Shown: positions 1-17,691 of the stretch, one piece after another | Layout of the letters: every line of letters begins with the position of its first letter | How positions within the stretch are numbered: the stretch's first letter is position 1 | IMG/VR virus record: IMGVR_UViG_3300046006_001914 | Coordinates: 1 to 29,655 of that record | DNA from: a virus | Strand: one strand, 5' to 3' | Length of the DNA stretch: 29,655 nt | Notes under the pieces: model-generated | The model's input: only the letters and a program-made list of their open reading frames with translations | Told to the model about the DNA's origin: nothing | Database searches by the model: none | Translations under genes and position numbers: made by a program

Positions 1-524
1 GTACAAAAGAAAATACAAGAGCTACTACCGTAACTATTGATGGAATATCTTCAAAGTGGCTAAGAGCAAGAATAGTAACTAAAGGTTCTTCATCACCAGT
101 CGCAACACAAATACGAACTATAGACCACGGTGGAGTTTCTGGCTGGAGAATGAAAGAGATGTGGTCTGCAAATATGAAGATTGTAGACAATGCAGGAACA
201 GCTATAAGTGGTGCAACAGTAAAAGCTACAAGTCCATCTGGTGTTACCTCATTTACAACAACTACTGGAGTAGATGGCAAGATTACAGAGCAGTTACTTA
301 CATCTAAAGAGTGGTATTTTGACCCTGTAAATAATGTAGGTCAAGTTGGTCAGACACTTACACCTACTTACAACTTAGAGATAAGCAAAGCAGGATATGA
401 AACTTATACATCAAATGGAAATGATTTAAGTGCTAAAATAGATATGACTATAGCTCTAAAAACAGAGGGATATGGAGATACAGTTATCTATGATTCCACT
501 TTAATTGATACGATACTTTATTAA
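1..524 (+). CDS. Virion appendage/tail fibre-like protein, C-terminal part (5' truncated)
   Basis: The reading frame is already open at base 3, so this gene enters from upstream of the window and the first ATG at 150 is internal. About 173 residues are visible. From about residue 58 they resemble a carboxypeptidase-regulatory or Cna-B-type beta sandwich: a run like NAGTAISGATVKATSPSG, a turn with TGVDGK, and a later ISKAGYETY strand. Such Ig-like domains are common at the ends of phage fibres, spikes and baseplate proteins and usually serve adhesion or stability. The position just before the lysis genes also suits a late tail or fibre gene. No enzyme motif is visible. Exact role and total length cannot be judged from this fragment. 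Confidence 0.6.
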   Translation, partial: TKENTRATTVTIDGISSKWLRARIVTKGSSSPVATQIRTIDHGGVSGWRMKEMWSANMKIVDNAGTAISGATVKATSPSGVTSFTTTTGVDGKITEQLLTSKEWYFDPVNNVGQVGQTLTPTYNLEISKAGYETYTSNGNDLSAKIDMTIALKTEGYGDTVIYDSTLIDTILY

Positions 525-538
525 AAGGTGGTGAAAAC

Positions 539-904
539 ATGGGAGATTTAACAAAAAACATTAGCGCTTCAGAACTTGTCTGCAACTGTGGTAAATGTGG
601 TCAGTGCATCCTAGATGACACAATAATAAAATATGCGCAGATGGTATTCGATGAGTGCGCAGACATAGCCAAAGTAGATAAGGTGCTAGTAACCATCACA
701 AGTGGAAACAGATGTAAAGAATGGAACAAGCACGAAGGTGGGAAACCAACCTCTAGGCATCTAAAAGGGCAAGCAATAGACTTTATGGTAAAAGGATTCA
801 CTGACTCACAGCTATTAGTTATCTGTGGGCTGGTTCTTCCTGTGGGGAAGTTCTACGCCTACAGTCCAGCTAAAGGAGTAGTTCATCTGCAATTAACTTG
901 TTAG
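539..904 (+). CDS. Endolysin-like M15 peptidase (D-Ala-D-Ala carboxypeptidase family)
   Basis: 121 residues, start ATG behind an AAGGTGG Shine-Dalgarno. It carries the zinc-peptidase M15 signature: SRHLKGQAID places the zinc ligands at His74 and Asp81, and His116 in a VHLQ strand fits the third. SGNR (Arg58) matches the usual SGYR turn before the first zinc ligand. The N-terminal SELVCNCGKCGQC run (Cys15, 17, 20, 23) is like the Cys-rich N-terminus of the M15_3 subgroup. Family members cleave peptide cross-links of peptidoglycan, so this is the probable cell-wall lysis enzyme. There is no signal peptide, so it would need a holin to reach the wall; a two-helix membrane protein lies two genes downstream. 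The third ligand motif is HLQ rather than the more common HxD/HVDL. Confidence 0.85.
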   Translation: MGDLTKNISASELVCNCGKCGQCILDDTIIKYAQMVFDECADIAKVDKVLVTITSGNRCKEWNKHEGGKPTSRHLKGQAIDFMVKGFTDSQLLVICGLVLPVGKFYAYSPAKGVVHLQLTC

Positions 905-926
905 TTATAATATAGTGAGGTGGCTT

Positions 927-1070
927 ATGTGGGTAGTATACTTAAGCAAAGACTGGAAAGAAAAAGAACTAATAAGAAAACAGAAAGAGTCAGATGCGAT
1001 ACAATACAAGCTTTGCCATGAGGGATGTTATAAATTGTCAGGTTATTGTTTAGTTATAAGGAAGGAGTAA
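927..1070 (+). CDS. Small hypothetical protein in lysis cassette (47 aa)
   Basis: 47 residues starting at ATG 927 with GTGAGG seven bases upstream, and ending three bases before the next start. The sequence begins MWVVYLSKDWKEKELIRK, is basic in the middle and has three cysteines (CHEGCYKLSGYC). No family recognised. The tight packing between endolysin and holin candidate and the good ribosome site support it as a real gene; the Cys spacing might bind a metal. Confidence 0.55.
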   Translation: MWVVYLSKDWKEKELIRKQKESDAIQYKLCHEGCYKLSGYCLVIRKE

Positions 1071-1072
1071 GA

Positions 1073-1285
1073 ATGTTTAAGTTTAGGATGACTGTAGTTG
1101 TAGAGTTGACGATAACGCTTGCTAGGCTGTTTATAATTTGTGCGTTCATTGTAGGAGCAGTATATGGGTTCATGTTCCAAGACACGATTGTAATGTGTAC
1201 TAGTATTGCATCAGCTTTGGGATTGTTTGCTTTGAGTTCTAATAATAAATCAAAGGAGAAACTTCATGTTGTGGACACTAATTAA
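1073..1285 (+). CDS. Putative holin (two transmembrane segments)
   Basis: 70 residues from ATG 1073, preceded by AAGGAG. An in-frame upstream ATG at 1046 lacks a ribosome site and overlaps the previous gene, so it is not preferred. There are two hydrophobic stretches, about residues 8-32 and 38-54, with a short loop between and a charged Lys-rich tail. Two-helix small proteins beside an endolysin are typical of class II holins, which make the inner-membrane lesion that times lysis. Identification rests on topology and neighbourhood, not on a family signature. Confidence 0.55.
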   Translation: MFKFRMTVVVELTITLARLFIICAFIVGAVYGFMFQDTIVMCTSIASALGLFALSSNNKSKEKLHVVDTN

Positions 1286-1394
1286 GATGCTATTTGGCTG
1301 GACAAAGAAACCAACCAGCGAAGTAAAGACGTTTAAGAAACTATCTGTAGACGTTCAAAGGGAGATGCTTAAAAACTATGTTAAAAAGAATTAG
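1266..1394 (+). CDS. Small hypothetical protein overlapping the holin candidate (42 aa)
   Basis: 42 residues from ATG 1266 with AAGGAG seven bases upstream, overlapping the end of the holin gene by 20 bases and the start of the next gene by 17. The N-terminus (MLWTLIKMLFGW) is a short amphipathic or hydrophobic stretch and the rest is Lys-rich. It may be a lysis accessory or holin modulator, but this is context only. Confidence 0.5.
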   Translation: MLWTLIKMLFGWTKKPTSEVKTFKKLSVDVQREMLKNYVKKN

Positions 1395-1611
1395 CTTGAT
1401 TTTATTATTATTAATGTCGCTATCTTACGCTAAAACAGACATTGAGCTAGCTGGAGAAGTAATGACTAAGGCAACAGAAGAAAAGGCTCGCTATGAGGCA
1501 TTAAACACTATTACAGCCAAGAACCAAGACAGGCTCAATAGGATGGAGCTTGAGTTATTTGTAGATAAGATATTATTTGTCGTATTAGCATGCGTAAAAA
1601 TATCTCTGTGA
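1378..1611 (+). CDS. Secreted spanin-like protein with signal peptide and C-terminal hydrophobic segment
   Basis: 77 residues. Residues 1-18 form a signal sequence (MLKRISLILLLLMSLSYA) with a plausible signal peptidase I site at SYA. A charged helical stretch follows (residues 20-58), then a short hydrophobic C-terminus (about 61-77). A secreted helix anchored at both ends, next to endolysin and holin, recalls unimolecular spanins that disrupt the outer membrane. Those normally carry a lipobox cysteine, and none is present here. The AAGGGAG site is 13 bases from the ATG, which is long. The last codons lie in a direct repeat that recurs at 1882, so the C-terminus may have been rebuilt by a rearrangement. 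Confidence 0.45.
   Translation: MLKRISLILLLLMSLSYAKTDIELAGEVMTKATEEKARYEALNTITAKNQDRLNRMELELFVDKILFVVLACVKISL
1582..1599. repeat. Direct repeat copy A (pairs with 1882-1901)
   Basis: GTATTAGCATGCGTAAAA here matches GTATTAGCCTATGCGTAAAA at 1882-1901 apart from a two-base insertion. The copies are exactly 300 bases apart in the same orientation. Copy A lies inside the 3' end of the spanin-like gene; copy B lies inside the structured non-coding region. Confidence 0.75.
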
Positions 1612-1617
1612 TATAAT
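1609..1617 (+). promoter_or_regulatory. Extended -10 promoter at the end of the lysis cassette
   Basis: TGATATAAT is a perfect extended -10 (TGn plus TATAAT at 1612-1617). No good -35 hexamer is seen 16-18 bases upstream. Initiation would fall near 1624, at the base of the hairpin described at 1619-1672. It overlaps the last codons and stop of the preceding gene. Confidence 0.45.
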
Positions 1618-1618
1618 A

Positions 1619-1672
1619 GTGGTAGCCAGTTGCCACCCCAAACCCCCCTTTGATAGTAGCTGGCTATTTTAT
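1619..1672 (+). ncRNA. Hairpin with C-rich loop and U-rich tail: terminator or small RNA candidate
   Basis: Bases 1621-1633 pair with 1656-1668 (13 pairs including G-U; core TAGCCAG with CTGGCTA), leaving a 22-base loop holding CCCCAAACCCCCC, followed by TTTTAT. A smaller alternative hairpin (GTGGTAG with TTGCCAC, 1619-1636) competes for the left arm. The simplest reading is an intrinsic terminator for the late transcript. The extended -10 immediately upstream and the exposed C-rich loop also allow a tiny RNA that could pair with G-rich ribosome sites. Seen: pairing and U tract. Inferred: function. Confidence 0.5.
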
Positions 1673-1680
1673 CTACACAT

Positions 1681-1709
1681 TTGTCATTAATAATCACTTA
1701 TGATACAAT
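1681..1709 (+). promoter_or_regulatory. Sigma70-type promoter for the structured leader and nuclease gene
   Basis: TTGTCA (1681-1686), a 17-base spacer, and TACAAT (1704-1709) with an upstream TGA making it an extended -10. Spacing and both hexamers are close to consensus. A start near 1716 would give a leader of about 300 nt before the ATG at 2020. Confidence 0.7.
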
Positions 1710-1715
1710 AGTATT

Positions 1716-2003
1716 CAGAAAGTAATTTCTCAGGGAAGTAATAGGTAGTGCTTTACTTCCCCAGCACTATAGGGATACTTGAAACAACCCCCTTTGCATT
1801 TTAATCGTTAGGATTTAACAACCTTTGCGTTAAAAGGGAGTTCTTTACAAGAGGAGACTCTGAACGTAACCCGATCTGACAGTATTAGCCTATGCGTAAA
1901 AGTGGTGGAGACTGTTGGGTGAACTAGCTAAGGCTTCTTGTTTGCTCCTCAATTAGGTCTAAAATGGCACTAATTGCAGGGGTGAACTGTATTTACAGTT
2001 TCA
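1716..2003 (+). ncRNA. Structured non-coding RNA / long leader upstream of nuclease gene
   Basis: All frames are closed here, yet many paired elements can be read: GGGAAGTAA (1733-1741) with TTACTTCCC (1753-1761); AGTGCT (1747-1752) with AGCACT (1763-1768), which is mutually exclusive with the first; a C-rich CCCCCTTT stretch able to pair with AAAAGGGAG near 1832; GATCTGACAGT (1872-1882) with ACTGTTGGGT (1911-1920); CAATTAG (1950-1956) with CTAATTG (1970-1976); and AACTGT with ACAGTT around an ATTT loop (1985-2000). GGGTGAACT occurs at 1917 and 1980. It does not match tRNA, tmRNA, RNase P RNA or a group I core as far as can be judged by eye. It could be a free RNA, a leader controlling the nuclease, or both. 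Confidence 0.6.
1882..1901. repeat. Direct repeat copy B (pairs with 1582-1599)
   Basis: GTATTAGCCTATGCGTAAAA, matching copy A 300 bases upstream with two extra bases. In the frame of the spanin-like gene this copy would read VLAYA then stop, while copy A reads VLACVKISL then stop. That would fit a duplicated gene end, though chance similarity is possible. Confidence 0.7.
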
Positions 2004-2019
2004 ATATTAGGAGATTATT

Positions 2020-2382
2020 ATGAGTATAAAATATCCACCAAGACATAGTGAATTTGAGATTCATGCTTATTTATATCATAGGTTACATTCAATAGGATAC
2101 GATGTTAGAGGTGAGGTTACGTTATATCTACCTACACATAAATGTAGGTTTGATTTAGTTATTTTCCATAACAAAGAAGCTGTTTGTATTATAGAGGTTA
2201 AAGATGGAGTTTTTATGAGTAATAAACAGGAAGAGCATCATTATCAACAATGGAAGAAAACTAGGCAAGGTAGAAGGTATAGAGAGCTAGGTTTAAAGGT
2301 TTTTTATTGTAGGGGAATGGAAAGAACAGATTTTATATTAAGAGAAATAGTTTCGTTTATGGATAATTTAGTATCCTTCTAA
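2020..2382 (+). CDS. Putative small PD-(D/E)XK-fold nuclease
   Basis: 120 residues, ATG with AGGAG seven bases upstream. A nuclease core is visible: helix SEFEIHAYLYHRL with Glu11, strand GEVTLYL, then RFDLVIF with Asp45, a short turn, and CIIEVK with Glu59 and Lys61. This is the D...(D/E)xK arrangement of the PD-(D/E)XK superfamily. A basic helix (QQWKKTRQGRRYREL) and a strand VFYCRG follow, as in many VRR-NUC or restriction-like minimal nucleases. No partner domain is present. It sits alone between the structured RNA and the early promoter, so it may be a free-standing homing-type nuclease, a host-DNA nuclease, or part of an RNA-linked system. Fold assignment is by motif only. Confidence 0.6.
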   Translation: MSIKYPPRHSEFEIHAYLYHRLHSIGYDVRGEVTLYLPTHKCRFDLVIFHNKEAVCIIEVKDGVFMSNKQEEHHYQQWKKTRQGRRYRELGLKVFYCRGMERTDFILREIVSFMDNLVSF

Positions 2383-2418
2383 AATATATTCAAAACTTTC
2401 GATACAAGTTTACTTCTC

Positions 2419-2441
2419 ATACACACGATAATGTGTATAAT
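2419..2441 (+). promoter_or_regulatory. Early promoter with overlapping inverted repeat (candidate operator)
   Basis: TATAAT at 2436-2441 starts the run of small early genes. The perfect inverted repeat ATACACA (2419-2425) / TGTGTAT (2432-2438), six bases apart, overlaps the -10 box. An operator placed this way would block polymerase. The XRE-type protein at 3952 in the same operon is the obvious candidate regulator. No convincing -35 is seen. Confidence 0.5.
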
Positions 2442-2476
2442 GGTATTTAGTTGAACGTGAAAGTGAGGTGAAGACA

Positions 2477-2653
2477 GTGAGAGTGAGCGTAACAGTGGAA
2501 GATAACGGAAATATTGATATTCATAACGTAAATGCAAACGACAAGATTTGGAGAGTAGCTAAGAACAAGAAGAATTTAGTTACTGATAGTGGCAAAGAGT
2601 TTAGAACAGGCGAGATAGTGATTGGCAAGTTTACAATTAATATTTATAGCTAA
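2477..2653 (+). CDS. Small early hypothetical protein (58 aa)
   Basis: Start chosen at GTG 2477, eight bases after GAAAGTGAGG; an in-frame GTG at 2468 lies inside the Shine-Dalgarno and is unlikely. The protein is beta-rich (alternating RVSVTVED, EIVIGKFTINIY), with no recognised family. It is the first gene after the early promoter, a place where host-takeover proteins are often found; that is inference. Confidence 0.55.
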   Translation: MRVSVTVEDNGNIDIHNVNANDKIWRVAKNKKNLVTDSGKEFRTGEIVIGKFTINIYS

Positions 2654-2670
2654 AAGAAAGTGAGGGTGAG

Positions 2671-2943
2671 ATGAATAACGCAAGAAGAAAAGAGCTAGTT
2701 AAAATCCAAGAAAGAATTGAGAGTTATAAGACTGAGCTAGAATCTCTTAGAGAAGAGCTAGAGGGTCTAAGGGATGAAGAGCAAGATTATCTTGATTGTA
2801 TGCCAGAGAATATGCAATATGGCGATAAGGCTCAAGCATCAGAGGATGCTATTTATCAGATGGATGATGCTATAGCAAATCTTGAGAGTGCTGAGAGCGA
2901 ACTTGATAGTGCTTATAACTGTATTGAAGAATCAGTAGTATAA
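2671..2943 (+). CDS. Acidic coiled-coil early protein (90 aa)
   Basis: ATG five bases after GAAAGTGAGGGTGAG. Almost wholly helical and acidic: residues 5-45 form a clear heptad coiled coil (IQERIESYKTELESLREELE), followed by a second helix at about 55-85 with repeated Glu/Ser/Asp. A short MPENMQYGDKA loop joins the two. Similar helical-hairpin hypothetical proteins with a loop of the PENLQ/YGEKA kind occur in many phages without known function. Confidence 0.65.
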   Translation: MNNARRKELVKIQERIESYKTELESLREELEGLRDEEQDYLDCMPENMQYGDKAQASEDAIYQMDDAIANLESAESELDSAYNCIEESVV

Positions 2944-2960
2944 AGAAAGTGAGGATGAAA

Positions 2961-3131
2961 ATGGTTAGATTAAGATTAACAGAATATGGAGAAGACGATT
3001 TTAAAGCAGAGTATAGGGCTTATGGCTCACATGGAACAATATCCAAGAAGTATATATCAAAGGCAAAGCAACGTGAAGTTAAAGAGTATGGATATGCTTA
3101 TGTGAATCAGCCTAAAGAAAGGATGGTGTAA
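2961..3131 (+). CDS. Small early hypothetical protein (56 aa)
   Basis: Start at ATG 2961, six bases after GAAAGTGAGG; the upstream in-frame GTG 2949 and ATG 2955 fall inside the ribosome site. Rich in Lys, Tyr and Arg (ISKKYISKAKQREVKEYGYAY). No family recognised. Confidence 0.5.
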   Translation: MVRLRLTEYGEDDFKAEYRAYGSHGTISKKYISKAKQREVKEYGYAYVNQPKERMV

Positions 3132-3132
3132 G

Positions 3133-3405
3133 ATGCTTAGAGTTATCGAAGAGTGGAATACAAGTGATGACGGATATGGTACTGATATGATTACGCTTGA
3201 GTGCGATGTGTGTGGGGCTACTTTTGTAGCTCCTTCTGGCTCTGACCCAAGTTGTGATTCTTGTATAGCTAATGAGCATATAGAAGAAGAAACTATAGAG
3301 CATCAAGCAGAAGGAATTGAAGAGGATGGCAAGGGTTTTTATAACGATGGAGATTATGAGCAGTTTGATGCGTATGGTGGATATGATATGGGGGATAGAG
3401 AATAA
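3133..3405 (+). CDS. Zinc-ribbon protein (90 aa)
   Basis: CDVCGATF (Cys24, Cys27) and PSCDSCI (Cys41, Cys44) make a four-cysteine zinc knuckle typical of small phage zinc-ribbon proteins, probably binding nucleic acid or protein. The C-terminal half is very acidic and rich in Gly and Tyr. The last 21 bases recur with one mismatch at the end of the next gene (3584-3604). Confidence 0.6.
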   Translation: MLRVIEEWNTSDDGYGTDMITLECDVCGATFVAPSGSDPSCDSCIANEHIEEETIEHQAEGIEEDGKGFYNDGDYEQFDAYGGYDMGDRE

Positions 3406-3604
3406 AATGAAAAAAACTAAATATACAATTAGAGGAATTAAGATATTGTTGCATCCAGACGAAGACCAGCCTTGCTATATGGATGCTCACAATACACCAG
3501 TTTACTTAGGTCATAAGTGCAAGATAGATGATGGGTTTATTGTAATGAGTGGAATGGGTGGATATTATATAACTAAAGATTTTGATATGGGGGAGAGAGA
3601 ATAA
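3385..3604. repeat. Duplicated 21-base gene end carrying the next gene's ribosome site
   Basis: Bases 3385-3405 and 3584-3604 are identical except at one position. Each encodes the last residues of its gene (DMG-D/E-RE), contains GATATGGGGGA, and ends with TAA directly at the next ATG. The repeat therefore carries coding end, stop and Shine-Dalgarno together, which suggests one gene-end module was copied. Confidence 0.6.
3407..3604 (+). CDS. Small hypothetical protein (65 aa)
   Basis: Start set at ATG 3407, one base after the previous stop; the longer upstream frame from 3317 would overlap the zinc-ribbon gene. Likely translated by coupling through the GGGGGA run. Begins MKKTKYTIRGIKILLHPDED; no known family. 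Ends in DFDMGERE, matching the previous gene's DMGDRE. Confidence 0.5.
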   Translation: MKKTKYTIRGIKILLHPDEDQPCYMDAHNTPVYLGHKCKIDDGFIVMSGMGGYYITKDFDMGERE

Positions 3605-3681
3605 TGGAAACAATTAAAGCAATATTATTTTTAGGTCTAGGATTAACAACTATCTACGTTGTTATGCTAGCAACATACTAA
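3604..3681 (+). CDS. Tiny single-span membrane protein (25 aa)
   Basis: METIKAILFLGLGLTTIYVV and five further residues: one transmembrane helix with almost no soluble part. ATG overlaps the previous stop (TAATG) behind GGGGGAGAG. Too short for family assignment. One of several such microproteins in the early region. Confidence 0.4.
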   Translation: METIKAILFLGLGLTTIYVVMLATY

Positions 3682-3690
3682 GGAGACATT

Positions 3691-3849
3691 ATGACAAATA
3701 TAAACGTTAAGAGAATAATACAGGCGATGGATAAGAGTTATGATGATATTAAAAAAGAGCAAGATAAGAACATTAGGCTTGGTAGATTAGAAGGTCTTTT
3801 GGAGTTCTCATTGTCTTACTTAAAAGAAGAAATAAAGGAGAAATCATGA
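3691..3849 (+). CDS. Small helical hypothetical protein (52 aa)
   Basis: ATG six bases after AAGGAG. Charged and helical (MDKSYDDIKKEQDKNIRLGR and a LEEF-like tail ending LKEEIKEKS). No family recognised. Overlaps the next start by ATGA. Confidence 0.5.
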   Translation: MTNINVKRIIQAMDKSYDDIKKEQDKNIRLGRLEGLLEFSLSYLKEEIKEKS

Positions 3850-3962
3850 TTAGTAGTAGCGAATGGCAGATAGCGCAGGAATGGTTAGAGATGACAATTG
3901 AAGAAGAAGGTTATGATTTGTATGACATAGAGAAAGATAACGAGATTGAAAATGAATACTAA
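3846..3962 (+). CDS. Small acidic hypothetical protein (38 aa)
   Basis: ATG 3846 with AAAGGAG seven bases upstream, ATGA overlap with the preceding gene. Very acidic (IEEEGYDLYDIEKDNEIENE). Its end overlaps the start of the XRE gene, suggesting coupled translation. No family recognised. Confidence 0.45.
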   Translation: MISSSEWQIAQEWLEMTIEEEGYDLYDIEKDNEIENEY

Positions 3963-4197
3963 AGAGTTCAAGAAGATACTAGGATTGAATCTAAGGCAGT
4001 TTCGTGAGGCTGGCAACCTCACTAGAGCCTATGTTGCACATCATGCAAAGATTCACTACAGAACATTAGAGCAGATAGAAAAAGGGGATTATACTGCTGG
4101 GATTGTTGTGTTAAAAAAACTGTGTGATTTTTATGAGCTAGACTTGAGTATAGTAGTGCCATCTGGTATAATAGAAGAAGAAAGTGAGGGTGAATAG
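3952..4197 (+). CDS. XRE-family helix-turn-helix regulator
   Basis: 81 residues from ATG 3952 (a TTG at 3946 in the same frame is an alternative). The HTH_3 fold is readable: LRQFREAGNLTRAYVAHHAK as helices 1-2, IHYRTLEQIEKGD as the recognition helix and turn, then IVVLKKLCDFYELDLSIVV as helices 4-5. It is Cro/CI-like in size and lacks a C-terminal peptidase, so it is a simple DNA-binding protein, probably an early switch regulator. Candidate sites are the inverted repeat at 2419-2438 and the promoter in its own 3' end (4144-4172). Confidence 0.75.
   Translation: MNTKEFKKILGLNLRQFREAGNLTRAYVAHHAKIHYRTLEQIEKGDYTAGIVVLKKLCDFYELDLSIVVPSGIIEEESEGE
4144..4172 (+). promoter_or_regulatory. Promoter for the recombination operon, inside the XRE gene
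   Basis: TTGAGT (4144-4149), 17-base spacer, TATAAT (4167-4172) with TGG making an extended -10. It lies within the last codons of the XRE gene and points at the ERF gene. Confidence 0.65.
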
Positions 4198-4239
4198 AAT
4201 CAAGGAATTTAGGTTATTTATTTAACAAAGAAAGTGAGG
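4180..4239 (+). repeat. Two copies of the extended ribosome-site element, the first without a clear gene
   Basis: GAAAGTGAGG occurs at 4180-4189 and 4230-4239. The second serves ATG 4245. The first is followed only by an 11-codon GTG frame (4190-4225) or by an ATA codon in frame with the ERF gene. It may mark a lost small gene or a leader peptide. Confidence 0.4.
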
Positions 4240-4244
4240 TTGAA

Positions 4245-4913
4245 ATGGGAATTTACAAGAAAATGTTAGAGTTACAAAAAGAGTTAACAGTGATGCCAAA
4301 GACAGAAACAGGTGGCAGTGTTAAGAGTTCATATAAGTATACTTCTGGAGATTATCTTTTCGCAGTATTAAGACCAAAGATGGATAAGCTAGGGTTGTTG
4401 TTATTCCAAGAGATAGTAGAATCTAAGAGCGAACACGTGCTTTGGAAGACAAGCTATGGAGACAAGCAACAGACATACGTTAGCGCAACATTCAAGTTCA
4501 CTTGGGTAGACTCAGATACAGATGAAAAAATAGAGCATCTATTCCACGCTGATGGGTTTAATGATTGGGATAAGGCGATAGGGTCAGCGATGACATACGC
4601 AGAGCGTTATTACATCCTAAAGCAGTTCCATATACCGACAACAGAGTTAGACCCAGATGAGCGCAAAGAAAACAGCACTCAAACTATTCCACCAGTAACA
4701 AAAGAAGAGCCAAAGAAAGAATCTAAGAAGAGCGCAGATGAAGAGCCAAAGTCTACAAAAGAACAGCTAGATGAAATATCTAGACTTGCTAAATTAAAGG
4801 GTTCGCTTCTGCCAAACATAAGTAAGAGTTATAAAGTTCCTTATATTTCTAACTTAACGTTTGCTATGGCTAAGGATTGCATAGAAAAACTAAAACTAAA
4901 GGAGAATATATAA
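4245..4913 (+). CDS. erf: ERF-family single-strand annealing protein
   Basis: 222 residues. The ERF-family hallmark is present: DKAIGSAMTYAERYYILKQF at 109-128, followed by IPT and acidic residues, with an N-terminal SSYKYTSGDYLFAVLRPKM element at 28-46. ERF proteins anneal complementary single strands during phage genome circularisation and recombination. The Lys/Glu-rich linker (about 140-175) and a separate C-terminal helical part fit the family. It starts the operon with DUF1351-like protein, SSB, NinB-like protein, HNH nuclease and RusA, a typical recombination set. Start ATG follows AAAGTGAGGTTGAA. Confidence 0.88.
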   Translation: MGIYKKMLELQKELTVMPKTETGGSVKSSYKYTSGDYLFAVLRPKMDKLGLLLFQEIVESKSEHVLWKTSYGDKQQTYVSATFKFTWVDSDTDEKIEHLFHADGFNDWDKAIGSAMTYAERYYILKQFHIPTTELDPDERKENSTQTIPPVTKEEPKKESKKSADEEPKSTKEQLDEISRLAKLKGSLLPNISKSYKVPYISNLTFAMAKDCIEKLKLKENI

Positions 4914-4914
4914 T

Positions 4915-5718
4915 ATGGAGCTGATAATACAAAACGAGATAGATATTTTAAAGAATGTTGAATGTAACTTTGAGGAGATTAAAAGCAAGTTACAAGAGAA
5001 AATGGTTACGTATAAAGGGTTAGTTTATAACGATGAGCAGATAGCTAATGCAAAAGCTGATAAAGCAAATCTTAACAAGCTAAAGACAGAAATTGAGGAT
5101 AAGCGTAAGGATGTAAAGAAAACAATCTTATTACCTTACGATAGCTTTGAACTAAAGATAAAAGAGCTTGTTAAGCTGATTGATGAGCCTATTACCGAGA
5201 TAGGAAAACAAGTAACTGCTTATGAGGATAAGATAAAGGCTGAAAGAAAGAAAATCATTGAAGCGTTCTTTACGTCAGAGATAGGAGATTGTGAATTAAA
5301 GCTTAATCGTATTTGGCAAGACAAGTGGCTAAATATATCTCTTAGCTTGAAGAAGGTTCAAGAAGAAGTAATGGGTCATATAGCCTATTTTAAGCGTGAT
5401 ATTGAAGTTATTACTAACCTACAAAGCAAACACTTCGAGCAACTTAAAAAAACGTATCTAGCCACTTATGACTTGGGATTAGTGATGACTGAAAAGAACA
5501 AGCTTGATGAAGCAGAGAAAACAGTCATAGCAGTACAGCAGAAAGAAGCAGAGCAAGTTAAGGTGGTAGAGCAAGAAAAAAAAGAGATACCACAGCAAGA
5601 AGTAGTTGCTACAGGGATGTCAACGTTTACAATTAAAGTAACCACCGATAAAGAACGTATGCAGTTATTGAAAGATTTTATTTTATTTAATCAAATCTCT
5701 TACGAGAGAATAAGTTAG
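4915..5718 (+). CDS. DUF1351-like phage recombination-module protein
   Basis: 267 residues, helical. An N-terminal part (residues 1-45) is followed by a run of Lys-rich helices (KADKANLNKLKTEIEDKRKD), a long coiled-coil middle, a Gln/Glu/Val-rich linker near 205-230, and a compact C-terminal beta-alpha element (TFTIKVTTDKERMQLLKDFI). This order matches DUF1351 proteins, which sit beside ERF or RecT annealing proteins and SSB in many phages and whose biochemical role is unknown. The start lies one base after the ERF stop. Confidence 0.75.
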   Translation: MELIIQNEIDILKNVECNFEEIKSKLQEKMVTYKGLVYNDEQIANAKADKANLNKLKTEIEDKRKDVKKTILLPYDSFELKIKELVKLIDEPITEIGKQVTAYEDKIKAERKKIIEAFFTSEIGDCELKLNRIWQDKWLNISLSLKKVQEEVMGHIAYFKRDIEVITNLQSKHFEQLKKTYLATYDLGLVMTEKNKLDEAEKTVIAVQQKEAEQVKVVEQEKKEIPQQEVVATGMSTFTIKVTTDKERMQLLKDFILFNQISYERIS

Positions 5719-5722
5719 AATA

Positions 5723-5806
5723 ATGAATCCAACAATAATGAACAGTGTTGCTATTGTCTTGCTAGGTATTGCTGTAATTATACATTTATTAAAAGGAGTA
5801 CAATAA
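5723..5806 (+). CDS. Tiny single-span membrane protein (27 aa)
   Basis: MNPTIMNSVAIVLLGIAVII then HLLKGVQ: one transmembrane helix. The stop overlaps the next ATG (TAATG). Ribosome site is weak, so confidence is modest. Confidence 0.35.
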   Translation: MNPTIMNSVAIVLLGIAVIIHLLKGVQ

Positions 5807-6039
5807 TGAACGAATTACCATATGGATTTAAAGACGATGAGTACAAGAGCCAAGTAGCTTGGGTAAAACAACAGGTTCTCGCAAAAGGTTTTATAACTAG
5901 GAACGAATGTCTAAGAAGTTATATCAGTAGATTGTCAGCGATTATATTCATCCTAAAAGAGCAAGGAATGATGTTTACAGTAGAGCGTGTTAAGAACAGT
6001 ATTGGTAGCGATTATATTTATTATTACAAAGGAGAATAA
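5806..6039 (+). CDS. Small winged-helix DNA-binding-like protein (77 aa)
   Basis: Start after AAAAGGAG. The pattern FITRNECLRSYISRLSAIIFILKEQG followed by FTVERV...YIYYYKGE resembles a winged helix-turn-helix (helix, recognition helix, hairpin wing) found in many short phage proteins beside recombination genes. Function unknown; probably DNA binding. Confidence 0.5.
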   Translation: MNELPYGFKDDEYKSQVAWVKQQVLAKGFITRNECLRSYISRLSAIIFILKEQGMMFTVERVKNSIGSDYIYYYKGE

Positions 6040-6040
6040 G

Positions 6041-6517
6041 ATGAAAAAATTAATATGTTTAGTAATGGTTTTAGGGTTTATGTTTGGGTTAGAAGTTACG
6101 CCAGAGTTTAGAGGAAACAAGTTGGGTATTACTTATGAACAGTTAAATGAAACGGCAGAGATTTATTCACATGAAACATATGGAGACAGAGAGTTTTATT
6201 ATTATGTAGTAGATTTTAAAGGATATAATGTATACGCATCTTATGTGTTCTATAAGGGGAAGCTATACAATGGAGCATACCTTGCATACGATGAAGCTAT
6301 GACAGAATTAGCAAGTACAGTCATATCTTCTTATAATCCAACAAAGGAGTCTGAAGGTATCTACTCTGTTTTATCCAAAGATAAGAAAACAAAGCTTATA
6401 GCGTCAGATGAAATCAATAACGATGGAGAACCATATGTTTGCGTTAGAGTATTTGATGTTGCTACTAATAAGCAAATCCTAGAACTAGAACGTAAGTCTA
6501 AAGAAACTAAGCTATAA
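6041..6517 (+). CDS. Secreted/periplasmic protein of unknown function
   Basis: 158 residues from ATG 6041 (eight bases after AAAGGAG). A clean signal peptide: MKKLICLVMVLGFMFGLEVT with cleavage probably near residue 17. The mature part is beta-rich and Tyr-rich (EFYYYVVDFKGYNVYASYVF) with an EINNDGEPYVCVRVFD segment. No family recognised. An exported protein inside a DNA-recombination operon is unexpected. It may alter the host envelope, for example as a superinfection-exclusion factor; this is inference. Confidence 0.55.
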   Translation: MKKLICLVMVLGFMFGLEVTPEFRGNKLGITYEQLNETAEIYSHETYGDREFYYYVVDFKGYNVYASYVFYKGKLYNGAYLAYDEAMTELASTVISSYNPTKESEGIYSVLSKDKKTKLIASDEINNDGEPYVCVRVFDVATNKQILELERKSKETKL

Positions 6518-6527
6518 GGAGAAAATA

Positions 6528-6878
6528 ATGAATAGTATTAACCTAATCGGAAATTTAACAAAAGACCCAGAGCTAAAGTACACAACAGAAGGTAAAGCAG
6601 TATGTTCATGTTCTATAGCTGTTAACGGATACAAGAAAGATGACGTAGATTTTATACCGATAAAAGCATGGGAAAAGAAAGCAGAGTTCATGGGTAACTA
6701 CCTTAAAAAAGGTTCTAAGGTTGGAGTAACTGGAAGACTAAGCATAAGACCATACGAGAAAGATGGGAAGAAGCTAACGTTTACAGAGGTTATTGTTGAG
6801 AATATACAGGCGCTTGATAAGAAAGTTAGCGATGAAAAGCAAGAAATTGTAACAGATGAAAGTGTTGTTCCCTTCTAA
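6528..6878 (+). CDS. ssb: Single-stranded DNA-binding protein
   Basis: 116 residues with a complete OB fold: MNSINLIGNLTKDPELKYT at the N-terminus, CSCSIAVNGY, FIPIKAWEKKAEFMGNYLKKG, then KVGVTGRLSIRPYEKDGKK. The acidic tail ends DESVVPF, the hydrophobic tip by which SSB proteins bind partners, though VPF replaces the usual IPF. The short linker is normal for phage SSBs. Sits after AAGGAG and overlaps the following gene by TAATG. Confidence 0.93.
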   Translation: MNSINLIGNLTKDPELKYTTEGKAVCSCSIAVNGYKKDDVDFIPIKAWEKKAEFMGNYLKKGSKVGVTGRLSIRPYEKDGKKLTFTEVIVENIQALDKKVSDEKQEIVTDESVVPF

Positions 6879-7258
6879 TGAGCCTACATGATTTAAATAC
6901 TCCAGAGGGAATCGCATCAGCAAAAGACAGGATGAATGCTGTTGCCAAGAAGGGTGGAACTGTCGAAATTAAAGAAGTCAAAGACAGTAGAACCTCTAGG
7001 CAGAATAGATACCTTCATAAGCAGTGGCAGATACTTGCAGACGATATAGGAGACTTCATGGAAGACGTTAAGTTTGAATCGAAGATAGCTATTGGGTTCT
7101 ATACAGAGACTCCTGCTGGATATAAAAAGCCAAAGGAATCAAGCAAGTTGAGCAAGGAAGAGTTTGCAGAGTTAACAGATAAGTTTATCAAGTGGGCGTT
7201 TATGTTTCATGGGATAAGACTTATGACACCAGAAGAGTTTTGGAGAGGAGCAGAGTAA
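6878..7258 (+). CDS. NinB-like recombination protein (putative)
   Basis: 126 residues. RTSRQNRYLHKQWQILADDI, an FEBS-like middle with SKLSKEEFAELTDKFIKWAF, and GIRLMTPEEF follow the layout of NinB/Orf-type phage recombination mediators, where an R.S.xQNRY motif is followed by helices. Placement between SSB and an HNH nuclease, with RusA downstream, matches lambda-like nin modules. Assigned from motif and context only. Start and stop overlap both neighbours, so translation is coupled. Confidence 0.5.
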   Translation: MSLHDLNTPEGIASAKDRMNAVAKKGGTVEIKEVKDSRTSRQNRYLHKQWQILADDIGDFMEDVKFESKIAIGFYTETPAGYKKPKESSKLSKEEFAELTDKFIKWAFMFHGIRLMTPEEFWRGAE

Positions 7259-7611
7259 TGGGATACAAGAAGTACAGAACAACAATCGGCTCAGAGAAGA
7301 ACAGGAAGGAATACTTTGAACACACTCCATACTGTGAGATATGTGGCTCTACTTACGAGACAGCAGTGCATCATCATATCCCTCAGCAGTGGAAGTATCG
7401 TGGAGATGAGTATATTATCGACCTACCAGAGAACTACAGCACGTTATGTAGAACATGTCATGGGATAGTAGAGCATAATGAGAGCCAGTACGACAGAGAG
7501 CTATTCGGCAGGGTGTTTAATGGAAGATTAAACTGGGTTCAATGGAGATACTGGAAGACATTAAAGAACGGAAAAAAGCCAGAAGAATATGTAGAAGGAG
7601 AGGTGAATTAG
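7258..7611 (+). CDS. HNH endonuclease-like protein
   Basis: 117 residues from ATG 7258 (AGGAG upstream; TAATG overlap). CEICG (Cys26, Cys29) and CRTCH (Cys64, Cys67, His68) hold structural zinc; HHH at 38-40 supplies the catalytic histidine and ENY at 58-60 the HNH asparagine, with His73 after the second CxxC. This is the ββα-metal HNH arrangement, as in NinG-like and packaging-type nucleases. In this operon it most likely trims or nicks DNA during recombination. Confidence 0.75.
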   Translation: MGYKKYRTTIGSEKNRKEYFEHTPYCEICGSTYETAVHHHIPQQWKYRGDEYIIDLPENYSTLCRTCHGIVEHNESQYDRELFGRVFNGRLNWVQWRYWKTLKNGKKPEEYVEGEVN

Positions 7612-7863
7612 ATGGAGTTTTTAAGCAAGGAGCAGATGAAGCGTAGGGTTTGGGATATTCTAGAGCTATGTGATTTCAATGAGAAGACAGAGGCTAAGTT
7701 GGCAGATTACATAGATTTAGTATCCGGAGAGCCGATAGATGAGGATTTAAGCAAAGGGCAGGCAGTAGGTCGTATATTGGATATTTATGAATGTTCAAAG
7801 CCGAAGCCTGAGCCAGAGGCAGTAAAGAAGCTAAGGGCGTTTTTGGGTCATTTAAGAGGATAA
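7612..7863 (+). CDS. Hypothetical protein (83 aa)
   Basis: Starts directly after the HNH stop, behind GGAGAGGTG. Helical, acidic, with a Pro-rich linker (SKPKPEPEA) before a last short helix (VKKLRAFLGHLR). No family recognised. Confidence 0.55.
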   Translation: MEFLSKEQMKRRVWDILELCDFNEKTEAKLADYIDLVSGEPIDEDLSKGQAVGRILDIYECSKPKPEPEAVKKLRAFLGHLRG

Positions 7864-7879
7864 CAAGAAAGAGAGGCAG

Positions 7880-8188
7880 ATGATGATAGTAAAAAGCGAT
7901 AGAGCAAGTGATTATTTTGAGACGTTATATAAGAAACAGCTAAAAAGACATAATCTAAGCCAGAAGGAGCGTATCTTTATTGCGCTATTCACTGCAGGAG
8001 AGCATGGGTTGTCTAAGAGGTTCTTTGACTACCAGATGATTCCAAAGATTAAGCATCCAAGACAGGCTATCAGCGTGTTAAGAAAGGCTGGGTTTGTGAT
8101 TGATTTTTTAGGTAGAGATAACGCAAGGTATGTTTTGAATACTGAAGTGTTTAATGATACAAAGAGAAAATGGTGGCATCTATGGTAG
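7880..8188 (+). CDS. Winged-helix DNA-binding-like protein (102 aa)
   Basis: Two adjacent ATG codons (7880, 7883) follow AAAGAGAGG. LSQKERIFIALFTAGEHGLSKR, then HPRQAISVLRKAGFVIDFLG and RYVLN, read as helix, turn, recognition helix and wing of a winged-helix fold, as in many replication or Rha-like accessory proteins. Its 3' end overlaps the RusA start by 19 bases. Exact role unknown. Confidence 0.5.
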   Translation: MMIVKSDRASDYFETLYKKQLKRHNLSQKERIFIALFTAGEHGLSKRFFDYQMIPKIKHPRQAISVLRKAGFVIDFLGRDNARYVLNTEVFNDTKRKWWHLW

Positions 8189-8562
8189 GAACTATTGTGC
8201 TTCATCATGTTCCTGTTCCTAAGCCTAGAATGACCAGAAGTGATGCTTGGGCAGGAAGAGACTGCGTAGTCAGATACTTTAGCTTTAAGGATGAGCTAGT
8301 GTTAGAGGCAAGAAGGGTAGGTTTTGTGTTAGGTAATGGGTTTAGGGTGATATTCTATATGCCTATGCCTAAAAGCTGGAGCAAGAAGAAGCAGGAAGCG
8401 TATTATGGGAAGCCACATGACCAGACTCCAGATATAGATAATTTATTGAAGGCAGTCATGGATAGTCTTCTTAAGCAAGACAACAAGGTTCATCACGTAG
8501 AAGCATTTAAGGTGTGGTCGTGTGTGCCAAAAATAATAATAACAAATGATTTGGGGGAGTAA
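8170..8562 (+). CDS. rusA: RusA-family Holliday junction resolvase
   Basis: 130 residues from ATG 8170 (ATG 8182 is an alternative). Family features: KPRMTRSDAW near the N-terminus, the strand VIFYMPMPKSWSKKK, then TPDIDNLLKAVMDSL with Asp88, Asp90, Lys94 and Asp98, and D104NKV. The DxD...K pattern is the RusA metal-binding site that resolves four-way junctions. Function fits the ERF/SSB operon. Confidence 0.9.
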   Translation: MVASMVGTIVLHHVPVPKPRMTRSDAWAGRDCVVRYFSFKDELVLEARRVGFVLGNGFRVIFYMPMPKSWSKKKQEAYYGKPHDQTPDIDNLLKAVMDSLLKQDNKVHHVEAFKVWSCVPKIIITNDLGE

Positions 8563-8565
8563 AAA

Positions 8566-8790
8566 ATGGTATTAATGGCAGATAAAAGTGTTCACATATC
8601 TAAGTACAATTTTGATGACGCAAAGGTAGGCGATGTGTTCGACCTACACTGTATAGAGCTATTTGATTGGAAGTTGCATATCATGCACAGGATTAAAGAG
8701 CTAAACGCTAAAGGAATGAAGCTAAGACACGTTCTAAAAGGGAAGGTAAGAGAATCAAACGCTATCTATTACCAAGTGGTGGCGAAATGA
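8566..8790 (+). CDS. Hypothetical protein (74 aa)
   Basis: Good site TTGGGGGAG before ATG. Looks alpha/beta: FDDAKVGDVFDLHCIELFDW, then helix HIMHRIKELNAKGMKLR and strand YYQVVAK. No known family. The next start overlaps its stop by ATGA. Confidence 0.5.
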   Translation: MVLMADKSVHISKYNFDDAKVGDVFDLHCIELFDWKLHIMHRIKELNAKGMKLRHVLKGKVRESNAIYYQVVAK

Positions 8791-8921
8791 GATTTGATAG
8801 AAGCAAGTTTGATGTTTTACTGTTGATACCAATCGGATTAGTAATATTTGCGATAATGTTCTTGCTGAATTGTTATAACTTTGTCGTTGCAGGAATATTA
8901 GTATTAAGGATGGGAGCGTAA
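8787..8921 (+). CDS. Small two-span membrane protein (44 aa)
   Basis: MRFDRSKFDVLLLIPIGLVI begins a first transmembrane helix to about residue 27; NFVVAGILVLRMGA is a second, shorter one. ATGA overlap with the previous gene. No family recognised. Confidence 0.45.
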   Translation: MRFDRSKFDVLLLIPIGLVIFAIMFLLNCYNFVVAGILVLRMGA

Positions 8922-8923
8922 TT

Positions 8924-9055
8924 ATGGGATTTAAGGATTATTTAATATTTGCTAAAGATTTTATGAGTCTACAAGACATACATAATAAATATACTCCTAA
9001 AAAGAAAAGCCAGAGCAAACTAAGAAGATTAAATAGGCAAAGGAGCATAAAATGA
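8924..9055 (+). CDS. Small basic hypothetical protein (43 aa)
   Basis: MGFKDYLIFAKDF then a Lys/Arg-rich tail (KKKSQSKLRRLNRQRSIK) that could bind nucleic acid. Weak ribosome site (GGGAG); its stop overlaps the next ATG. Confidence 0.4.
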   Translation: MGFKDYLIFAKDFMSLQDIHNKYTPKKKSQSKLRRLNRQRSIK

Positions 9056-9387
9056 AAGTAAAGATTGTACAGTGCTATAACAGCCTATCTTGGTATACTC
9101 GTAGGATAGGAGAAATATTTGAAGTTTATTATGGAACACAAGGTGCAGAAAGATATTTCTTAGTTGAAGATAAAGAAAAAACAAGCCAAAGATTTATGGA
9201 AAAATCAGACTGCGAAATCGTTGCTGATGAAAAGCCTAAAGTTGAAAAAGTTAAGAAGTACAAGTATGTGTGTAAAGAATGTACTGAGCATTGTAAAGTA
9301 AAAGGCTCTAAGCCATTTTGTCCAACAAAATGTTTAATAACTGGGTTAGATGTTAAGTGGAAACTAAAAAAGGAGAAGCGTAAATGA
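9052..9387 (+). CDS. Cysteine-rich, probably zinc-binding protein (111 aa)
   Basis: Start after AAAGGAG. N-terminal part looks like a small beta barrel (KIVQCYNSLSWYTRRIGEIF, EVYYGTQG). After a Lys/Glu linker comes VCKECTEHCKVKGSKPFCPT followed by KC, a five-cysteine cluster likely to bind zinc. No family recognised. Confidence 0.5.
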   Translation: MKVKIVQCYNSLSWYTRRIGEIFEVYYGTQGAERYFLVEDKEKTSQRFMEKSDCEIVADEKPKVEKVKKYKYVCKECTEHCKVKGSKPFCPTKCLITGLDVKWKLKKEKRK

Positions 9388-9665
9388 GAGTATTACATTT
9401 AACATTAAAAAAGAAATGGTTTGATATGATAGCTTCAGGTGAAAAGAAGCAAGAGTATCGTGAGATAAAGCCATATTGGATAACCAGATTAGCTAATCCA
9501 GAAGTCCCTGAGTTTGATTATGTGTTATTTACTAATGGATATAGAAAAGATAGTCCTAAGTTATTAGTTGAATGTGTAGAGATAGCCATAGGAAATGGTA
9601 AGAAAGAATGGGGAGCAGAAAGCGATAAAGAGTATTTTGTAATAGTTTTAGGTGATATAAAGTAG
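9384..9665 (+). CDS. ASCH-domain protein
   Basis: 93 residues. MRVLHLTLKKKWFDMIASGE then EYREIKPYW and VLFTNGY are the classic ASCH/PUA-like signature (GxKxxEyR...W, then FtnGY). ASCH proteins bind RNA or modified nucleotides, and some act as cytidine-derivative amidohydrolases. In phages their role is unknown; placement before an MT-A70 methyltransferase is suggestive of RNA or DNA modification handling. Start follows AAAAAGGAG. Confidence 0.8.
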   Translation: MRVLHLTLKKKWFDMIASGEKKQEYREIKPYWITRLANPEVPEFDYVLFTNGYRKDSPKLLVECVEIAIGNGKKEWGAESDKEYFVIVLGDIK

Positions 9666-9672
9666 AAATAAA

Positions 9673-9771
9673 ATGAGTTGGAGAGATGATTTTGATAAAG
9701 AGTTAAACGTAGATGAAAAACATCACGACATAGCTTATATAAGCATAAAGAAAGTAAAGGAGAAAGTGTGA
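9673..9771 (+). CDS. Tiny hypothetical protein (32 aa)
   Basis: MSWRDDFDKELNVDEKHHDI and 12 more residues; ribosome site poor. The stop overlaps the methyltransferase ATG (TGATG), giving weak support for coupling. Low confidence. Confidence 0.3.
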   Translation: MSWRDDFDKELNVDEKHHDIAYISIKKVKEKV

Positions 9772-10337
9772 TGAGCAGCAAAAAATATAGAATTATTTAT
9801 GCAGACCCTCCGTGGTCATATAAAGATAAAGCTCTTGCTGGAAATAGAGGTGCTTGTTGTAAGTATAAGGTAATGGAAGTATTTGATATTTCAAAGCTAA
9901 ACATAAAAGATTTGGCAGATGAAGATTGTGTACTTTTTATGTGGGTAACAATGCCTAAACTTAATGAATGTTTTGATTTAATAAAAGAGTGGGGATTTCA
10001 GTATAAAACCACAGCGTTTACTTGGGTTAAGAAAAACAAGAAATCAGAAAGTTGGTTTTTTGGGATGGGTAGATGGACTAGAGCAAATGCAGAGTTATGC
10101 TTATTAGCAACAAAGGGTAAGCCAAAACGCATTAACTCTGGTGTTAGTCAAATTATAGACACACCAATACAAGCACATTCACAGAAACCAGATGAAGTAA
10201 GAAAACGTATAGTAAAACTTATGGGGGATATTCCAAGAATAGAACTATTTGCTAGAGAAAAAACTGAGGGATGGGATTGTTGGGGTAACGAAATAGAAAG
10301 CGATATAACCATACAAGTTAAAGGAGAGAATAACTAA
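9771..10337 (+). CDS. MT-A70 family adenine N6-methyltransferase
   Basis: 188 residues from ATG 9771 (GTG 9768 in frame is an alternative). The N-terminal YADPPW (Asp12-Trp15) is the MT-A70/Dam-class catalytic DPPW, followed by CVLFMWVTMPKLNECFDLIK, AFTWVKKNK, RANAELCLLATKGKP and SQKPDEV...ELFAREKTEGWDCWGNE. Reaction: methyl transfer from SAM to adenine N6, in DNA (or possibly RNA). Phage copies are thought to protect DNA against restriction or alter gene expression. No restriction enzyme partner is nearby. Confidence 0.9.
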   Translation: MSSKKYRIIYADPPWSYKDKALAGNRGACCKYKVMEVFDISKLNIKDLADEDCVLFMWVTMPKLNECFDLIKEWGFQYKTTAFTWVKKNKKSESWFFGMGRWTRANAELCLLATKGKPKRINSGVSQIIDTPIQAHSQKPDEVRKRIVKLMGDIPRIELFAREKTEGWDCWGNEIESDITIQVKGENN

Positions 10338-10466
10338 ATGATAAACACAATAATAAACCTGATTATGTTTCTAATTATCGTAGTCCTACAACTGATTATT
10401 AATAGACAGAGTAAGTGTATTGAGAAACTAGAGCAAGAAGTAAGAGATTGGAGGATTGTAAAATGA
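10338..10466 (+). CDS. Small membrane protein with charged helix (42 aa)
   Basis: One transmembrane helix (residues 2-22, MINTIINLIMFLIIVVLQLI) and a charged C-terminal helix with KLEQEVRDW. Overlaps the following gene by four bases (ATGA). Confidence 0.45.
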   Translation: MINTIINLIMFLIIVVLQLIINRQSKCIEKLEQEVRDWRIVK

Positions 10467-10726
10467 CTAAAGTATTACTAGCTATAGACAGTGAGAAGTT
10501 AAATGATAAAAGTGTAGATTATATAGGATTTTTTAATATACGTGATGTCCACGTAGAAGAAGCCAAAGCAGATGCACAAAAGATAGTTGAAGCATTGCTC
10601 AAGGAAACAGAGCAGAAGCAACTAAGTAAATTTAAAATTGATGTACTAGATTTATATATTGGCAATATTGATAGTAAACAGCTTAGAGATAAATATTGGG
10701 AAGAAAAGTATAAAGGAGTGGAGTGA
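10463..10726 (+). CDS. Hypothetical protein (87 aa)
   Basis: ATG 10463 after TTGGAGG. Alpha/beta (KVLLAIDSEKL, EEAKADAQKIVEALLKET, KFKIDVLDLYIGN). No known family. Overlaps the next start by one base (TGATG). Confidence 0.5.
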   Translation: MTKVLLAIDSEKLNDKSVDYIGFFNIRDVHVEEAKADAQKIVEALLKETEQKQLSKFKIDVLDLYIGNIDSKQLRDKYWEEKYKGVE

Positions 10727-10926
10727 TGGAAATACAGTTAAAACAAAGAATGGTCGGACTTTTAAGCAGTAGAATAATTATGCTATTAACTGAAATAGTA
10801 AAACAAAGCGTAATTCATATTCCACACCAAGAATACTATATACTAATAGTTCCAAGAAAAAAGAAACAAGAAATGAAAATATATTTTGATGAAGCAATCC
10901 ATATTGAACACATTAAGGGAGTTTAA
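10726..10926 (+). CDS. Hypothetical protein (66 aa)
   Basis: ATG 10726 after AAAGGAG; the preceding GTG is not preferred. Lys-rich, mixed alpha/beta (LSSRIIMLLTEIVKQSVIHI, YYILIVPRKKKQ). No family recognised. Confidence 0.45.
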   Translation: MEIQLKQRMVGLLSSRIIMLLTEIVKQSVIHIPHQEYYILIVPRKKKQEMKIYFDEAIHIEHIKGV

Positions 10927-10935
10927 GGAGTAAGC

Positions 10936-11037
10936 ATGGATATAGGATATAGTTTAGGAGTGATGTGGAAGTACACTGTGGATGCTTTTGTGATAGCGCT
11001 TGTAGTGTGGATATTTTTAAGATTAATAAGGGAGTGA
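10936..11037 (+). CDS. Tiny single-span membrane protein (33 aa)
   Basis: ATG 10936 after AAGGAG. A helix from about residue 17 to 30 (DAFVIALVVWIFLRL) flanked by MDIGYSLGVMWKY and Arg/Glu at the end. Good ribosome site supports expression. Confidence 0.45.
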   Translation: MDIGYSLGVMWKYTVDAFVIALVVWIFLRLIRE

Positions 11038-13716: not shown

Positions 13717-14148
13717 GTGAGGAAAGAGTTTTACGATGGGAATCAGATAATGAAGAACTACACAGATTATTGGATAGACTTAATAGGTGAAGAGCTAGGA
13801 TGCTACACAGACATAGAGGATGTGAAGCGATGTGTTAAAAATTTAGTTAACGCTGACTTGCTCAAGATATTGTCTATCAACAACACAGGCGTGTTTGCTT
13901 ATGTGATAGCTCCAGATTTTCTAGGTGGCAGAGCGTTAAGTGAGGTTGTCTTCTATATACGCAAAGAGGAGCGTGGGAACTTGAGGCTGTTTAAGAGGTA
14001 TCTGAGCATGATAGAGGCGATAGCTAAGAAGGAACATTGTGGTTCAGTGAAGATAGGTGGCAATATAGGATACAAAGACCAATCATTCTTAACGTTACTT
14101 AAAAGATTTGGTTACGTAGATGACACAGTAGCAAAATATTTGACGTAA
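13717..14148 (+). CDS. GNAT-like acetyltransferase between terminase and portal
   Basis: 143 residues from GTG 13717 (an in-frame ATG at 13750 is an alternative). The C-terminal half fits a GNAT core: LSEVVFYIRKEERGNLRLFK (strand 4 and the acetyl-CoA loop region), IEAIAKKEHCGSVKIGG, and LLKRFGYV. GNAT proteins are often found between terL and portal in podoviruses, with unknown substrate. The promoter of the next block lies over its stop codon. Confidence 0.6.
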   Translation: MRKEFYDGNQIMKNYTDYWIDLIGEELGCYTDIEDVKRCVKNLVNADLLKILSINNTGVFAYVIAPDFLGGRALSEVVFYIRKEERGNLRLFKRYLSMIEAIAKKEHCGSVKIGGNIGYKDQSFLTLLKRFGYVDDTVAKYLT

Positions 14149-14167
14149 TTTCTATAAATGGTACAAT
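14140..14167 (+). promoter_or_regulatory. Late promoter before the portal block
   Basis: TTGACG (14140-14145), 16-base spacer, TACAAT (14162-14167) with TGG before it. Near twin of the promoter at 17551: both have ATTTGACGTAATnT at the -35. Confidence 0.7.
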
Positions 14168-14195
14168 AGATACATACGAAACATGAGGGAGCTTT

Positions 14196-17554: not shown

Positions 17555-17578
17555 CGTAATCTGTATATATGATAAAAT
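17551..17578 (+). promoter_or_regulatory. Major capsid promoter
   Basis: TTGACG (17551-17556), 16-base spacer, TAAAAT (17573-17578), TGA before it. Overlaps the scaffold stop and gives a leader of about 107 nt. Confidence 0.7.
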
Positions 17579-17598
17579 ATAATTATAGAGTAATAACC

Positions 17599-17645: not shown

Positions 17646-17691
17646 CTCATTAGTAACCCTAGTAAGTTAAATTAATAAAGGAGTGATTAAT

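Follow-up and report, generated by a model that had tools for sequence, protein, structure and literature searches.

An apparent late-terminator/promoter junction with a long non-coding leader ahead of a small PD-(D/E)XK-like nuclease gene in an uncultured virus

Introduction

Why does a compact viral genome hold several hundred bases without a gene directly in front of a small nuclease gene, and do these bases give rise to an RNA with a role of its own? The locus lies in a record of an uncultured virus (IMGVR_UViG_3300046006_001914), the whole 29,655 nt of which we analysed and refer to as the window. The gap at 1612–2019 (408 nt) is the longest between genes in the window, and sits at the meeting point of the late operon (endolysin and small genes) and the early genes. 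When ORFs of at least 40 aa are counted it is the sole intergenic stretch above 150 nt, leaving aside the open-ended last gene; in a curated gene list the next-longest gaps are 314 and 261 nt, and gaps of 220–330 nt are also kept in related phages. An earlier note, made from the sequence, had read the locus as a probably functional structured RNA joined to the nuclease.

Results

Gene order and anatomy of the junction

On the + strand the end of the tail genes is followed by an M15 endolysin, three small late ORFs, the gap and an ORF of 120 aa, after which come many small early genes with an HTH protein, ERF, DUF1351, SSB, HNH, RusA and MT-A70; small and large terminase genes lie downstream of these, and then the structural genes. 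The last late ORF has no match in Pfam or PHROG and the least typical codon usage among 48 genes, and a relative of the phage (G003) has a similar small secretory ORF at the equivalent position. Several early genes between 2461 and 4245 share a repeated ribosome-site context (AAAGTGAGGNTGAA) upstream, from which the nuclease (AGGAG) and the late genes differ.

The gap divides into a hairpin, a promoter and a non-coding leader, followed by the nuclease gene (Table 1). The promoter, the hairpin, the absence of an ORF and the nuclease motif are all apparent in the sequence, and we consider the anatomy of promoter, leader and nuclease, joined in the order that the earlier note had given, to be largely real.

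Table 1. Positions of features at and around the junction (window coordinates)
Feature	Position	Strand	Evidence or remark
M15 endolysin	539–904	+	Pfam E 1.2e-12
Last ORF of the late operon, 77 aa, with a signal-peptide-like N terminus	1378–1611	+
Extended −10 (TGATATAAT) without a good −35	1609–1617	+	sequence; repeat shared with the 1701 site
Late-operon terminator-like hairpin, GTAGCCAG...CTGGCTA-TTTTAT, C-rich loop	1621–1674	+	fold, z
Sigma-70 promoter TTGTCA-17-TACAAT, TG extension	1681–1709	+
Non-coding leader, about 303 nt, start inferred	1717–2019	+	no ORF; skew; fold
End-closing helix	1721–1730 (5′ arm), 2010–2019 (3′ arm)	+	could mask the nuclease SD
BoxA-like GTTCTTTACA, then directly hairpin AGAG-GAGA-CTCT	1840–1861	+
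Leader's most stable hairpin, 16 bp	1944–1983	+	pair probabilities 0.98–1.00
PD-(D/E)XK-like nuclease, 120 aa, SD AGGAG at 2009–2013	2020–2382	+
HTH protein	3952–4197	+	early gene

The hairpin has a z-score of −3.3, with 2 of 400 shuffles equally good, and the stretch 1561–1680 has the second-lowest folding z-score among 493 windows. Together with its TTTTAT tail it fits the end of the late operon, which the extended −10 box at 1609–1617 overlaps as a possible weak promoter. The terminator loop (1642–1652) and the leader (1786–1796) both contain a C-rich box, AACCCCCYTTTG, and AAAGGGAG at 1833–1840 could pair with either copy.

The + strand of the window has 5 TG-extended promoter sites matching at 10 or more of 12 positions, compared to 0.475 expected in shuffles, a tenfold enrichment. 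The same type is seen at other starts of transcription units, before ORF 14196 and before the capsid gene at 17689; these two promoters, at 14136–14168 and 17546–17579, have an extended block in common (ATATTTGACGTAAT...TGRTAMAAT) and are probably late or middle promoters of the phage, one of them lying ahead of the major capsid gene. The near-consensus promoter proposed earlier is found with a TG extension besides, and is credible because its class exceeds the shuffles and because two others sit before ORF 14196 and the capsid gene with ATATTTGACGTAAT. Transcription would begin near 1717. Since the start is placed there, an RNA beginning at 1612, as first proposed, conflates the terminator and promoter with the RNA: 1612–1680, with its terminator-like hairpin, falls outside, and a promoter-derived RNA of about 303 nt stands. 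A further promoter-like site follows the nuclease at 2414–2441, and the nuclease may therefore be a unit of its own, not the head of the early operon.

Coding content and folding of the leader

The leader has no open frame of note, as had been claimed: no ORF with a start codon overlapping 1700–2019 exceeds 23 codons on either strand. Its base composition is unlike that of the coding strand, and the G/C skew of its first half is near zero on a strand that is otherwise purine-rich. Folding gives a minimum free energy of −84 kcal/mol, with a z-score of −2.0 against 400 dinucleotide shuffles (16 as good) and of −2.4 against a set of 100 (2 equally good), and the leader ranks third in stability among 100 windows of 303 nt. 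The leader thus folds modestly better than chance, and with this rank and a z-score of about −2 a specific structure may exist. The best helices are 1944–1956/1970–1983, 1733–1741/1753–1761, 1874–1883/1911–1920 and the closing 1721–1730/2010–2019. At least six stems had been taken as the mark of a structured RNA, a number expected of almost any 300 nt. An H-type pseudoknot considered at 1733–1769 was dropped, its third loop having 2 nt to cross a 9-bp stem.

The closing helix has a probability of 0.92 when the leader is folded alone, of 0.03 with 35 nt of the gene, of 0.31 with 63 nt, and of 0.60 if the transcript begins at 1614; the hiding of the SD varies with the flank folded and is not robust. 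When coding sequence is folded along with the leader, the SD is mostly paired (G2011 is unpaired 4–7%). The nuclease start lies outside the 14 most occluded among 52 starts tested, and translational gating is therefore without positive support. With a fold that only mildly beats shuffles and a masking helix that drops from 0.92 to 0.03 with its flank, the earlier statement that the RNA is probably functional goes too far.

The earlier note also drew attention to a repeated word, GGGTGAACT, which does occur twice in the leader; about 0.17 such 9-mer repeats would be expected per 300 nt by simple counting, and we do not consider it significant. A scan of viral contigs for GGGTGAACT-N42-66-GGGTGAACT gave 52 matches, none similar beyond the pattern. 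Closely spaced copies of GGGTGAACT were seen in five viral contigs, several of these copies as short palindromes, for instance GGGTGAACTGTATTCACCC or GTGAACTTTGTTCAC, and they look like binding-site or origin arrays.

The nuclease

The translation of the 120-residue ORF, MSIKYPPRHSEF...CRFD45LVIF...IIE59VK61DG, has the D...(D/E)xK catalytic signature at D45, E59 and K61, exactly as first described. Pfam-type searches matched NERD (E 0.0021) and HSDR_N (E 0.0022), both below curated score cut-offs. The AlphaFold model, built from the single sequence, is of poor quality (pLDDT 46), but has helices and strands in the order expected for an alpha-beta-beta-beta-alpha-beta fold; when this low-confidence model was submitted to Foldseek the best match was the restriction enzyme EcoT38I (probability 0.89), with EndoMS and XisH much lower. 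The protein shares the D...ExK signature and predicted helix/strand order of NERD/HSDR_N nucleases, but scores under the curated cut-offs, and no close homologue of it was found. It likely belongs to the PD-(D/E)XK superfamily and is presumably active as an enzyme. Codon usage is phage-typical (ranked by closeness to the average of the phage, the gene is 47 of 48), and the gene therefore looks resident; a moron of foreign composition was considered and dropped, codon usage being typical despite the low GC.

Search for relatives

Homologues of the nuclease were sought by six-peptide scans in viral contigs and in GTDB genomes, with tblastn against phages and plasmids, and with the DNA pattern FDLV-EVK-RQG; no real one emerged from these scans, which reach only fairly close relatives. 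Within the phage, plasmid, viral-contig and GTDB collections the gene is an apparent orphan. Relatives of the leader RNA were likewise absent from viral contigs, GTDB genomes, phages and plasmids; an E. coli plasmid match at 2014–2056 was rejected (43 nt, E 0.02–0.04, between IS1 and an rpoH gene).

Relatives of the phage itself were sought through scans with the endolysin, a PHROG 4068 protein, the terminase and ERF. Six records with a terminase 67–77% identical share the structural module only, with the leader and nuclease absent, and whole-record searches of 23 further records gave a single 25-nt chance match inside a tail-fibre-like gene. The syntenic junction of G003 runs from the endolysin through a small ORF, a secretory ORF and 45 nt to the next gene. 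It has neither leader nor nuclease, which means that conservation of the pair is lacking in the sole relative with a readable junction. Comparison of 1–11000 with G003 and G005 shows a sharp mosaic, in which structural genes are at most 77% identical (terminase) and the early half is almost without detectable relatives.

Comparison with known RNA classes

The leader has no gathering-level match in Rfam, where the best hit (E 2.3, with E up to 10 examined) is chance-like; it had been said to fit no known class, and this agrees. By the absence of a matching Rfam covariance model we set aside a riboswitch or other known structured RNA class, and, there being no recognised interrupted ORF either, a group I or II intron with a homing endonuclease. 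An OMEGA/HEARO RNA with IscB, IsrB or TnpB was rejected likewise: there is no Rfam match, and the protein is 120 aa with a D-ExK signature and without RuvC or HNH.

A likeness is also found in type III toxin–antitoxin systems, where, as in the window, ToxIN has an RNA encoded directly 5′ of a small nuclease (PMC5086642). However, their plan requires tandem repeats and an inner terminator (PMC5086642), of which the locus has neither, and its nuclease is of the PD-(D/E)XK type in place of ToxN. We looked for 30–40-nt tandem repeats, a Rho-independent terminator between the RNA and the toxin gene, and a ToxN-family endoribonuclease, and ToxIN, CptIN and TenpIN were rejected on all three features: Tandem Repeats Finder detected no such repeats in 1500–2500, there is no terminator-like site on the + strand of 1717–2019, and searches of Pfam, NCBIfam and PADLOC gave no ToxN match to the nuclease, with NERD/HSDR_N weakly matched instead.

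Discussion

On balance, the locus is probably an ordinary junction between a late terminator and a promoter, whose long 5′ leader may tune expression of the nuclease in cis. Late transcription would stop at the hairpin, and the host sigma-70 RNA polymerase would restart at the promoter behind it; the resulting messenger would carry an untranslated leader of about 300 nt and then the PD-(D/E)XK-type nuclease as its first gene. The leader would fold locally and most likely only set the amount of nuclease in cis, by way of the stability of the RNA and of the ribosome-binding site, part of which is paired in all the folds we tried; any such regulation we infer. The gene order of tail, endolysin, small late genes and early genes, with the hairpin at the end of the late genes, speaks for a boundary between transcription units. 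Long phage 5′ leaders driven by host sigma-70 share with the window the order of promoter, untranslated leader, SD and gene, and this phage has one of about 100 nt before its own capsid gene; the leader of the nuclease is roughly three times longer and moderately structured. Against the cis leader, 300 untranslated bases are long for a genome so compact. Among the options listed in the earlier note this is nevertheless the most economical, and the others, a free RNA or an RNA partner of the nuclease, are without support.

The leader could instead be a neutral spacer or decayed gene, left without function between the late terminator and the nuclease, as might be expected from a fold only mildly above chance, from the lack of relatives in the collections searched and from its absence at the G003 junction. 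We hold this to be fairly unlikely, given a composition unlike coding sequence with a first-half skew near zero, several perfect hairpins, and the tendency of compact phages to lose useless DNA.

An antitermination leader would have the nascent RNA act on RNA polymerase in the manner of HK022 put RNA, or work via NusB/S10 at a boxA, letting transcription pass the terminators of the early operon. Of known structured RNAs at the head of an early operon, put is the nearest in terms of function. It measures about 70 nt and forms two stem-loops, and putL lies just behind an early promoter (PMC9378689); the leader of the window similarly stands at the start of early genes, behind an early-type promoter, and putL and putR are, like it, structured RNAs at the start of an early operon (PMC9378689). 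The + strand of the window has a single exact copy of the boxA-like GYTCTTTACA, at 1840–1849, and a GNRA-capped hairpin directly follows this word, which makes 1840–1861 a speculative nut-like element. However, the leader is about 300 nt with more stems than put (PMC9378689), to which we found no sequence relation, the boxA-like word also falls within a possible helix with 1782–1795, a 10-letter word may arise by chance, and no N-like protein was recognised among the genes. Antitermination is in our view unlikely, though still a serious rival.

Quite improbable, again, is a structured phage RNA of a kind not described before, about 300 nt long and with its own early promoter, which would control or assist the nuclease or antiterminate the early operon. 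GOLLD, ROOL and similar RNAs are large non-coding RNAs of phage as the leader would be (PMC12286853), but the leader has no Rfam match, is about 300 nt, and has a fold that beats shuffles only mildly.

The region might also act as DNA, as operators or as a site of replication or recombination, with repeats that merely resemble RNA stems. An 18-letter motif, GTATTAGC-ATGCGTAAAA, is found at 1582–1599, within the final part of the upstream gene, and again, two letters longer, at 1882–1901 in the leader, an equally good repeat arising in 1 of 150 shuffles; it is a possible operator, and there are besides the C-rich boxes AACCCCCYTTTG at 1642 and 1786 and two extended −10 boxes. The core of the motif, TTAGCATGCGTAA, is roughly palindromic. 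Yet the repeats are few and irregular, Tandem Repeats Finder gave no tandem array and no iterons in 1500–2500, and no neighbouring initiator or integrase gene was recognised, so that we consider a DNA element very improbable. A scan of viral contigs for TATTAGC-N0-4-ATGCGTAAAA gave 27 matches, none alike beyond the pattern, at chance-like and unrelated places.

A role of the RNA as partner to the nuclease (a guide, antitoxin or tether) is highly improbable: the leader adjoins the nuclease gene and has the GTATTAGC-ATGCGTAAAA motif in common with the upstream gene, a repeat equalled in 1 of 150 shuffles, but tandem repeats, a terminator between RNA and gene, RuvC or HNH, and an Rfam OMEGA/HEARO match are all absent, and the motif recurs in viral contigs only at the chance-like, unrelated places above.

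The value at present lies in a precise map of the junction. Should the stretch be only a leader, the locus illustrates how late and early transcription are kept apart in an uncultured phage, with a small orphan nuclease placed first; should the RNA prove functional, it would represent a new class of regulatory RNA in phages or a nuclease linked to an RNA.
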